From: Massilimicrobiota sp. An134
GTDB lineage: Bacteria > Bacillota_I > Bacilli_A > Erysipelotrichales > Coprobacillaceae
Length of the DNA stretch: 64,000 bases
Assembly: GCF_002160815.1 (NCBI RefSeq)
Contig: NZ_NFLH01000006.1
Location: 1 to 64,000 of the forward strand
Reading direction: 5' to 3'
Shown here: positions 47,158 through 50,532 of the stretch, piece after piece
Layout of the letters: each line of letters begins with the position of its first letter
How positions within the stretch are numbered: the stretch's first letter is position 1
Notes under the pieces: generated by a model
Seen by the model: the letters and a program-made list of their open reading frames with translations, nothing else
Told to the model about the DNA's origin: nothing
Databases searched by the model: none
Program-made: the position numbers and the translations under genes

Positions 47158-47769
47158 ATGAGTTCGCTATTTGAAAATACTTGTAATACAAGGTTATTAT
47201 TTAAAAATGATACACGTTTTATAAGAAGTGATGTACCTATAAAGTTAACTGAAGATGAAATACAATGGCTCATTCATCATAGTGTACGTACTATCTTTGA
47301 TTTACGCAGTGAAAATGAACGTTTCAAGCAACCAAGTTTATTTGAAAACGATACACATTTTATTTATCATCATACACCAGTGACGGGTGGCAATCATATT
47401 CCACGTACTCCTGAAGAAGTCAGTTTATCATATATTCATATGGTAGATGAAAACATGTGGAAAATCATATACATGATGCTTCATGCTTCTACACATGTCC
47501 TTTATTTTTGTAATGCCGGTAAGGATCGCACAGGAATTGTGTCAGCCATTTTAATGCTTTATTTTGGAATGGATCATGAAAGTATTGTTGAGGATTATTT
47601 GATATCCAAAGATAATTTACAAAAAAGATTAGAAATGTATGTTCAAAATCATCCTCATATAGATATGAATGTGATTACACCACGACGTGAATATATAGAA
47701 CGATTTTTAGAAGATTTTGAACAGCAATATGATTTACAAATGATTAAAAAAATGGAAAATAATTTTTAA
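47158..47769 (+). CDS. Tyrosine-protein phosphatase (dual-specificity-like)
   Basis: 203 residues. The P-loop FCNAGKDRTGIVSAILM (C-x5-R) lies near residues 119-135; the general acid region is around GGNHIPRTPEE. The N-terminal FRTDVPIKLTEDEIQWLIHHSVRTIFDLRSENER-like stretch is typical of bacterial PTPs of the LipA/MptpB type, which often act on phosphoinositides or phosphotyrosine. AAAGGAGG precedes ATG 47158. Confidence 0.9.
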   Translation: MSSLFENTCNTRLLFKNDTRFIRSDVPIKLTEDEIQWLIHHSVRTIFDLRSENERFKQPSLFENDTHFIYHHTPVTGGNHIPRTPEEVSLSYIHMVDENMWKIIYMMLHASTHVLYFCNAGKDRTGIVSAILMLYFGMDHESIVEDYLISKDNLQKRLEMYVQNHPHIDMNVITPRREYIERFLEDFEQQYDLQMIKKMENNF

Positions 47770-47844
47770 TTAAAGAGTCATATTTTTTCGAATCTCCAAT
47801 ATCTTTATGTTATAATAATAGTATGAGTAAAGGAGGAATTTGAT

Positions 47845-48120
47845 ATGGCTCAAAATTTAAAATTTACTGTTACAGATCCAGTTGGTTTATATGCAACACC
47901 TACAACTGAATTGGTTAATACTGTGAAACAGTTTTATTGCCATGTAACATTAAATTATGGTAATAAAAGTGTCAATTTAAAAAGTATGATGGGAGTTTTA
48001 TCTTTAGGAATTCCAACGAAAGCACAAGTTGAAATTGTTACTGACGGTGAAGATGAAAAAAAGGCAATTGAAATAATTAAAGATAAAATTAATGAATTAG
48101 GAATTTCAACAATTGAATAG
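47845..48120 (+). CDS. HPr-family protein with Tyr in place of the phosphorylated His (Crh-like)
   Basis: 91 residues, HPr fold throughout. The active-site loop reads DPVGLYATPTTELV where HPr has GLHARPAT: His15 is Tyr (residue 16 with Met counted) and the Arg17 position is Thr. The regulatory Ser46 site is kept (NLKSMMGVLSLGI, Ser47 with Met). So it cannot pass PTS phosphate but could be phosphorylated by HPr kinase, like Crh of Bacillus (Gln15). AAAGGAGG precedes the ATG; it has its own terminator. Confidence 0.9.
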   Translation: MAQNLKFTVTDPVGLYATPTTELVNTVKQFYCHVTLNYGNKSVNLKSMMGVLSLGIPTKAQVEIVTDGEDEKKAIEIIKDKINELGISTIE

Positions 48121-48127
48121 TTATATA

Positions 48128-48155
48128 GGGTATTCAGTGATGAATACCTTTTTTT
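48128..48155 (+). terminator. Terminator of the HPr-like gene
   Basis: GGTATTCA (48129-48136) pairs with TGAATACC (48141-48148), loop GTGA, then T7. Confidence 0.88.
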
Positions 48156-48228
48156 GTAAGGGGAATCATTCAAAAGATTTGAGAAAAACGAATAGATGTG
48201 AGATACTAAACAAAAGGGGGTTTGATTC

Positions 48229-50532
48229 ATGATTCAATACATTAGAAAAAGAGATGGACGTATGGATGTCTTTGATGTCAATAAAATTGCAGGAGCTATT
48301 TATAAGGCGTTTCAGGCAACAGAAGCGAAATATGGTCTAGATGCAGCTATTCATTTGGCACATATTGTAGAGCAGAAATTAGAGGATCGTCATACAGAAT
48401 TGCCAACAGTAGAGCTGGTACAGGATACTGTAGAGGAAACATTAATAGAAAAAGGGTATGTACGTATTGCAAAAGCTTATATTTTGTATCGTGCTGAACG
48501 TACACGTTCTAGAGATCGAAAATCACGTTTAATGAAAACATTGGAAGAAATTACTTTTCAGGATGCTAAGGATAGTGATTTAAAACGAGAAAATGCGAAT
48601 GTGAATGCTGATGCACCAATGGGAACAATGTTAAAATATGGGGCTGAAGCAGCCAAACAGTTTAATGAGATGTTTGTTTTAAATCCTTTACATAGTGCAG
48701 CACATCGTTCTGGCGATATACATATTCATGATATGGATTTTTTGACATTGACAACAACCTGTACCCAAATAGATATTATTGATTTGTTTAAAGGTGGTTT
48801 TTCAACTGGTCATGGAGTTTTGCGTGAACCTAATAGTATTACGACATATTCTGCTTTAACTTGCATTGCGATTCAATCTAATCAAAATGATCAGCATGGT
48901 GGACAGGCTATTGTGAATTTTGATTACGGAATGGCTGAAGGAATTAAAAAATCATATCGTAAGTGGTATTTGAAAGCTATTGAAGAAGCATTAACATTAT
49001 TAACTGATGTCAATGTTGCAGATGTTATGGCACAGTTGAAATCATTAAATCATCAGCCTTCTTTAAGTTGTCAAAATTATGCTATAGAAGAAAAAGATGT
49101 ATTGATGCATAATCATATATCTCCACAAATTATTGAGCGTATTCAAAAATTTGCAAGTGAAAGAGCATATCAGGATACTGATAAAGAAACGTATCAGGCT
49201 ATGGAAGCATTAATTCATAATTTAAATACGATGAATTCTCGTGCAGGAGCACAAGTACCATTTAGTTCATTGAATTATGGCATGGACACATCAGTTGAAG
49301 GAAGAATGGCTATTCGTAATGTCCTTCTTGCAACGGAGGCAGGCTTGGGTGGTGGAGAAACACCTATTTTTCCAATTCAGATATTTAGAGTTAAGGAAGG
49401 CATTAATTATCAAAAAGGTGAACCTAACTATGATTTATTCCAATTAGCATGTCGTGTTTCAGCAAAGCGTTTATTTCCTAATTTTTCGTTTGTTGATGCA
49501 ACGTTTAATAAACAATATTATAAAGGAACACCAGAAACAGAAATTGCATATATGGGATGTCGTACTAGAGTTATGGGTAATATTTATGATCCAACTCGTG
49601 AGATTTCTCCAAGACGTGGGAATTTAAGTTTTACTTCTATTAATTTACCTCGTTTAGCGATTAAATCAAAAGGTGATATTGATGAATTCTTTATTAAGCT
49701 GGATCAATTAATAGATTTATGTATAGATCAATTATTAGAAAGATTTGAAATTCAGTGTAAAAGACGTGTGATGAATTATCCATTTTTAATGGGACAGGGT
49801 GTTTGGCTTGATTCAGAAAAATTAAAATCAACAGATGAAGTCAGAGAAGTATTAAAACATGGGACTTTAACGATTGGATTTATAGGTTTAGCCGAAACAT
49901 TAAAATCTTTGATTGGTTATCATCATGGTGAAAGTGAAAAGGCACAAATTTTGGGATTACAAATTGTAGCGCATATGCGTCGTCGTGTTGATGAAGCCTG
50001 TCAGAAATATCATTTAAACTTTTCTTTAATTGCCACACCTGCAGAAGGATTATCAGGACGTTTTGTAAAACTAGATAGACAATTATATGGAAAGATTGAA
50101 GGAGTCACAGATCGAGAATACTATACGAATAGTTTTCATGTTCCTGTTTATTATCCAATCAGTGCTTTTGATAAAATAAGAATTGAAGGACCTTATCATG
50201 AACTCACAAATGGAGGACATATTAGTTATATTGAAATGGATGGTGATCCAACAAAGAATTTACCAGCTTTTGAAAAAATTGTAAGAGCTATGCATGATGC
50301 CAATATGGGATATGGGGCTATTAATCATCCTGTTGATCGTGATCCTGTTTGTGGATATAATGGCATTATTAATGATGTTTGTCCTCAATGTGGTCGTAAA
50401 GAAGCACCTCATGAAGAATTTGAAAGAATTAGACGTATCACAGGTTATCTTGTAGGAACGCTTGATCGTTTCAATGATGCCAAAAGAGCAGAAGAAAAAG
50501 ATCGTGTTAAACATGGAATCAACAAAGATTAG
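48229..50532 (+). CDS. nrdD: Anaerobic ribonucleoside-triphosphate reductase
   Basis: 767 residues. N-terminal ATP-cone (IQYIRKRDGRMDVFDVNKIAGAIYKAF), the ten-stranded barrel with NSRAGAQVPFSSLNYG, and a C-terminal glycyl radical region DPVCGYNGIINDVCPQCGR that also supplies zinc-site cysteines. It makes dNTPs under anoxia. GGGGG-rich RBS precedes ATG 48229. The nrdG start lies 20 nt inside its 3' end. Confidence 0.96.
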   Translation: MIQYIRKRDGRMDVFDVNKIAGAIYKAFQATEAKYGLDAAIHLAHIVEQKLEDRHTELPTVELVQDTVEETLIEKGYVRIAKAYILYRAERTRSRDRKSRLMKTLEEITFQDAKDSDLKRENANVNADAPMGTMLKYGAEAAKQFNEMFVLNPLHSAAHRSGDIHIHDMDFLTLTTTCTQIDIIDLFKGGFSTGHGVLREPNSITTYSALTCIAIQSNQNDQHGGQAIVNFDYGMAEGIKKSYRKWYLKAIEEALTLLTDVNVADVMAQLKSLNHQPSLSCQNYAIEEKDVLMHNHISPQIIERIQKFASERAYQDTDKETYQAMEALIHNLNTMNSRAGAQVPFSSLNYGMDTSVEGRMAIRNVLLATEAGLGGGETPIFPIQIFRVKEGINYQKGEPNYDLFQLACRVSAKRLFPNFSFVDATFNKQYYKGTPETEIAYMGCRTRVMGNIYDPTREISPRRGNLSFTSINLPRLAIKSKGDIDEFFIKLDQLIDLCIDQLLERFEIQCKRRVMNYPFLMGQGVWLDSEKLKSTDEVREVLKHGTLTIGFIGLAETLKSLIGYHHGESEKAQILGLQIVAHMRRRVDEACQKYHLNFSLIATPAEGLSGRFVKLDRQLYGKIEGVTDREYYTNSFHVPVYYPISAFDKIRIEGPYHELTNGGHISYIEMDGDPTKNLPAFEKIVRAMHDANMGYGAINHPVDRDPVCGYNGIINDVCPQCGRKEAPHEEFERIRRITGYLVGTLDRFNDAKRAEEKDRVKHGINKD

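Follow-up and report, generated by a model that had tools for sequence, protein, structure and literature searches.

HPr, the product of ptsH, docks through its basic surface and its His15/Arg17 region onto acidic residues in its complexes with Enzyme I (EI), Rsd, LsrK and MtlR (PMC6763467), and in the E. coli protein most of the contacts with EI are made by Thr16, Arg17 and Ala20 (PMC8509676). Crh has no His15; its Ser46 is phosphorylated by HPr kinase/phosphorylase (HPrK/P), and the protein serves and binds CcpA (PMC9631020; PMC4591507). Moreover, Crh also regulates methylglyoxal synthase (PMC10714963).

The window studied here, a stretch of 64,000 nucleotides from Massilimicrobiota sp. An134, carries the gene for an HPr homologue with tyrosine in place of the PTS histidine, referred to below as Tyr15-HPr (Table 1). 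This protein represents a real, conserved class of HPr paralogues, apparently not described before; no description of a Tyr15 HPr was found in the titles and abstracts of the open-access literature. We propose, and hold it somewhat better than an even chance, that Tyr15-HPr is a paralogue specific to the Coprobacillaceae that has left the PTS phosphotransfer chain to serve solely in signalling through Ser46, as a functional counterpart of Crh.

The analogy with Crh, drawn in the initial annotation, is apt as regards function. Like Crh of Bacillus, Tyr15-HPr stands beside a normal HPr, has lost the PTS histidine but kept Ser46 and its helix, and occurs together with HPrK/P and CcpA. The analogy does not extend to descent, since the protein is no Crh orthologue: the Tyr15 sequences group with the ptsH products of Coprobacillaceae and not with the Crh clade. 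Further differences are the residue at position 15 (Gln in Crh), the loss of Arg17, which Crh keeps in QARP, and the stand-alone gene, as opposed to the glmR-whiA-crh operon. The structural model of Tyr15-HPr likewise resembles HPr, with a TM of up to 0.87, more closely than Crh, with a TM of 0.65-0.76. With canonical Firmicutes HPr, such as that of S. aureus (1ka5) or the genome's own copy, it shares the fold, the length and the Ser46 loop, whereas His15 is replaced by Tyr, Arg17 by Thr, and the basic charge of the EI-docking face is lost.

The gene, its product and its surroundings

Table 1. Features of the Tyr15-HPr locus (window coordinates)
Feature	Position	Strand	Remarks
Y_phosphatase3-family gene	47158..47769	+	upstream; neighbour only, outside the system
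Extended -10 promoter element TGTTATAAT	47808..47816	+	putative promoter of the Tyr15-HPr gene
Ribosome-binding site AGGAGG	47831..47836	+	ahead of the Tyr15-HPr gene
Tyr15-HPr paralogue gene	47845..48120	+	91 aa, HPr family, GLYATPTT / KSMMG
Codon TAT, Tyr16	47890..47892	+	position 15 of HPr, where the PTS His would stand
Codon AGT, Ser47	47983..47985	+	HPr Ser46, HPr kinase/phosphorylase site
Intrinsic terminator	48127..48155	+	10-bp stem and T run, directly 3' of the Tyr15-HPr gene
Anaerobic ribonucleotide reductase-like gene	48229..50532	+	nrdD by inspection; downstream, behind the terminator; neighbour only

The open reading frame is complete, with 91 codons, an ATG start and a TAG stop. 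Its product matches the Pfam family PTS-HPr (PF00381) with 78.6 bits (E 3.8e-22; gathering score 23) and shares 55-58% identity with the canonical HPr of the Coprobacillaceae. An AlphaFold2 model takes the HPr fold with moderate confidence (pLDDT 72.9, pTM 0.59); its topology, E-H-E-E-H-E-H, is the beta-alpha-beta-beta-alpha-beta-alpha order of the family. The best PDB match is HPr of Geobacillus stearothermophilus (1y4y, TM 0.86), and the top structural matches are Gram-positive HPrs, most of them with a TM of 0.80-0.87. The active loop, GLYATPTT, has Thr at position 17, and the Ser46 loop reads VNLKSMMGVLSLG.

If Tyr15-HPr were the only HPr of the organism, the initial annotation would lose its ground. 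This case is excluded: a search for other HPr genes found exactly two in the genome, the Tyr15 paralogue and a separate canonical copy, with GLHARPAT, on another contig (C34). The genome further encodes one full copy of EI, one HPrK/P (336 bits) with an intact Walker A motif, GDSGIGKS, and 10 matches to PTS_EIIC. Because of this set, a working PTS probably exists without Tyr15-HPr. The single CcpA-like regulator, at 262 bits, stays short of the equivalog cut-off for ccpA, but among solved structures its best relatives are CcpA; it keeps Y295, D296, R303, K307 and D99.

Lying between its own promoter and terminator, the Tyr15-HPr gene is a monocistronic unit. An extended -10 element of like kind precedes nearly all orthologues, and a recognisable terminator is found at most of them. 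No cre site was found 5' of the gene. At 48154-48169, with the terminator on one side and the nrdD-like gene on the other, is a cre-like site, TTGTAAGGGGAATCAT, that has a single mismatch; cre-like matches occur in the window at chance level (48 found versus 50.4 expected).

The initial annotation had also speculated on a link to the tyrosine phosphatase gene upstream. Tyr15 might be phosphorylated by a BY-kinase and the mark reversed by a tyrosine phosphatase, which would make the protein an HPr doubly controlled at Tyr and Ser. The invariance of Tyr15 (25 of 25 sequences), while residue 17 varies freely, is consistent with this scheme, as are the adjacent phosphatase-family gene and a BY-kinase-family protein encoded in the genome, the search for the latter having covered this genome only. 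However, an invariant Tyr is predicted equally well by a contact or helix-cap residue. The Y_phosphatase3 gene adjoins Tyr15-HPr in only three of five congeners (G000, G002 and G004), and is found at the locus neither in the other two congeners (G001 and G003) nor in any other genus. It evolves fast: where it is present it is about 49-55% identical, versus 97% for the neighbouring HPr, and the promoter-like -10 element that separates the two genes is also conserved at loci without the phosphatase. The link is therefore not supported, and phosphorylation of Tyr15 by such a kinase seems very unlikely. The same low probability attaches to the wider view that a PTS histidine switch was turned into a dual-kinase Tyr/Ser switch, through which BY-kinase signalling for capsule or cell wall would be wired into carbon catabolite control. 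The sequence is compatible both with a phosphorylated Tyr15 and with a contact residue at this place.

On the other side, the gene is followed by an nrdD-like gene in genera g1, g5, g15, g16 and g19, and, in g8, g12, g13 and g20, by mraY-murD, the names of these two being given from sequence. An operon or functional link to either is weakened by the orthologues' own -10 elements and, mostly, terminators; these genes are therefore neighbours rather than operon partners.

Conservation, origin and distribution

Conservation was compared by column between 25 Tyr15 sequences, chosen for having Tyr, and 20 canonical ones. Position 15 is the sole column fixed for different residues in the two groups (Tyr in 25 of 25, His in 20 of 20). 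No other column splits the groups so cleanly, and it was Tyr, not a mixture of residues, that took the place of His. Residue 17, an invariant Arg in canonical HPr, is Thr in 15 of the Tyr15 sequences, Ser in three, Gly, Lys or Ala in two each, and Arg in one. In helix 1, Ile21 has mostly become Glu or Lys, and Ser27 has become Lys; across residues 15-28 the net charge is about 0, as against +2 in canonical HPr. On the other hand, Lys45, Ser46 and Met48 are invariant in the Tyr15 sequences (25 of 25) and, together with Pro11, Gly13, Leu14, Asn43, Ser52, Leu53, Gly54, Pro56, Ala59 and Gly67, in both groups. By this pattern, the surface that faces the PTS was set free, that around Ser46 was held, and Tyr15 became fixed as a new feature. 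The claims of the initial annotation that the Ser46 site is intact and that the ordinary role of a His15 phosphocarrier is impossible are thus upheld, Ser46 being strictly conserved among orthologues and position 15 being Tyr in 34 genomes.

Of these 34 genes, 30 have TAT and four have TAC as codon 15, and codon 46 always specifies Ser but draws on both codon families (22 TCN and 12 AGY). The dN/dS of about 0.03-0.2, well below 1, points to purifying selection, and a sequencing slip or gene decay as the source of Tyr15 is ruled out by the occurrence of the protein in 34 genomes of 15 genera. A functionless, decaying ptsH duplicate would fit the loss of His15 and the branch lengths, by which Tyr15-HPr evolves faster than canonical HPr, but it can hardly be reconciled with a frame kept open in 34 genomes, with invariant Tyr15, Lys45, Ser46 and Met48, with a Ser46 retained through both codon families, or with a conserved promoter, ribosome-binding site and terminator; purifying selection across 15 genera refutes it.

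In a tree that includes Crh and the clostridial paralogues, the Tyr15 sequences group with the canonical HPrs of the Coprobacillaceae (99/97) and form a clade of 26 sequences (98/85), one of which, from g09, has His. Crh groups apart from them, with clostridial proteins that carry Asp, Gln or Asn at position 15 (98/79). When HPrs of the sister family were added, a core of 23 Tyr15 sequences stayed together (94/99), while g18 and g02b fell outside the resolved core. A single origin is compatible with the data (AU p 0.51). With some 90 columns the alignment is short, and the support for one Tyr15 clade is moderate; a single duplication followed by losses is thus the simplest account rather than a proven one. 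These trees are best read as showing that Tyr15-HPr is distinct from Crh and had an origin of its own.

The Tyr15 paralogue occurs together with canonical HPr in 34 of 43 Coprobacillaceae genomes (15 of 20 genera). It is missing from g7, g11 and g17, from one g10 genome and from an incomplete g4 genome; the first three are well-covered genera, and Tyr15-HPr is therefore dispensable. About 88 of 113 sampled genomes of the sister family have a single HPr, and all 30 sequences read from that family show GLHARPAT. Searches with the DNA pattern GxYA...K(S/T)xMG, which has a fixed spacing and requires GxYA plus K-S/T-x-M-G, found no Tyr15 HPr outside the Coprobacillaceae in 316 genomes of the order, 395 of the class and 392 of the phylum, the phylum sample overlapping that of the class and the first pattern missing the Leu codons TTR after Ser46. 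A wide occurrence was accordingly rejected, the matches being confined to this family.

Two departures from the type were seen. A protein like those of the Tyr15 clade in g09 (G017; L100:4350-4658, minus strand) reads GLHANIAD, with His15 but neither Arg17 nor Pro18, and sits on a very long branch; it is possibly a reversal from Tyr to His. In addition to its canonical HPr, genome G005 encodes a divergent pair of paralogues, GMHAKS and GLYLTP (L086:4790-5149 and L087:4521-4832, both on the minus strand).

A proposed role in Ser46 signalling

The window protein lacks what a ptsH phosphocarrier needs, namely His15 and Arg17 with the basic EI-docking face, and the EI-type docking surface is gone. 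That it might still be an active phosphocarrier of an unusual PTS branch, with the phosphate on another residue, finds an argument only in its HPr fold and family membership; given the missing His15, the vanished Arg17 and basic charge, and the canonical HPr alongside, we consider this scarcely credible. What the protein does possess is Ser46 with the flanking Lys45 and Met48, the features expected of an HPrK/P substrate, and it is a putative substrate of that enzyme at Ser46.

In the Crh-like role proposed here, high levels of glycolytic intermediates and ATP would lead HPrK/P to phosphorylate Ser46 of Tyr15-HPr, and the Ser-P form may then bind CcpA or another metabolic target. Because EI could never His-phosphorylate the protein, PTS flux would not antagonise its Ser46 signal, so that Tyr15-HPr would signal the state of energy and carbon supply without regard to sugar uptake. 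As part of the same binding face, Tyr15 would probably be a fixed partner-contact residue rather than a phosphate carrier. The erosion of the basic EI-docking face (Arg17 and helix 1), the retention of Ser46, Lys45, Met48 and helix 2, and the presence of HPrK/P and of a CcpA whose pocket for Ser46-P is intact all argue for this role. Against it stand the three well-covered genera without the gene, the orthologue-like g09 protein, which has His again but lacks Arg17, and the possibility that loss of Arg17 weakens CcpA binding.

In the Bacillus complex, an HPr-type Arg17 contacts Asp69 and Asp99 of CcpA. By alignment, the CcpA of Coprobacillaceae keeps R303, K307, D296 (Asn in g02) and D99, and has Gln instead of Asp69 in all 14 aligned sequences. 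A co-adaptation of residue 69 to Tyr15-HPr was considered and set aside as unspecific, as Gln69 is also found in genomes without the paralogue.

Given the loss of Arg17, the chief alternative to the CcpA step is another partner. Tyr15-HPr may chiefly bind a metabolic or cell-wall enzyme directly, through Tyr15 and the reshaped helix 1, with phosphorylation of Ser46 switching the binding off; this we regard as a tentative and rather unlikely alternative. The loss of Arg17, the re-coded helix 1 and the fixed Tyr15 could together form a new partner face, the mraY-murD neighbourhood in four genera would suit a cell-wall enzyme, and Crh sets a precedent with methylglyoxal synthase (MgsA). However, a gene that has a promoter, and in most cases a terminator, to itself forms no operon with mraY or nrdD, and the neighbourhood varies between genera.

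If the Crh-like role is right, the solution found in Crh, in which the regulatory role of HPr is split from its role in transport, evolved at least twice, in the present case within a single family of anaerobes from the gut, where Tyr is the one fixed residue. Such a pair would be a clean natural separation of function, with one HPr serving PTS transport and the other Ser46 signalling. A further implication would be that ptsH by itself does not suffice to read catabolite repression in the gut bacteria of this family.

Further HPr-like proteins

Other HPr paralogues that depart from His15 were noted among the sequences collected. Clostridial proteins with Asp, Gln or Asn at position 15 (among L021-L056) resemble Tyr15-HPr in lacking His15 and keeping Ser46, but they group with Crh in the tree, belong to another lineage and carry another residue at 15. 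Those of Lachnospiraceae and Christensenella-like bacteria (L021-L047) have Asp or Gln (GFDGRP, GLDAKS, GLQARA), and such an Asp15 could imitate a His in a permanently phosphorylated state. A third small protein resembling HPr (L091, L102, L103, L107, L111, L113 and L115) keeps His15, while its Ser46 is replaced (mostly DLKKLL); it may be a PTS-only HPr, the mirror image of the Tyr15 paralogue.

Finally, an HPr domain that keeps GIHARPA and has lost Ser46 is fused to the N-terminus of a D-2-hydroxyacid dehydrogenase in L094:1262-2560 (plus strand), L092:655-1947 (minus strand) and L104. Further fusion frames, of about 430-460 aa, were seen in g7, g8, g10, g11, g14, g17 and g18 and in genome G168 of the sister family; the dehydrogenase families PF00389 and PF02826 were tested for two of the fusions. 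A literature search found no description of this fusion, by which a dehydrogenase, for instance D-lactate dehydrogenase, would be coupled to the phosphorylation state of the PTS.
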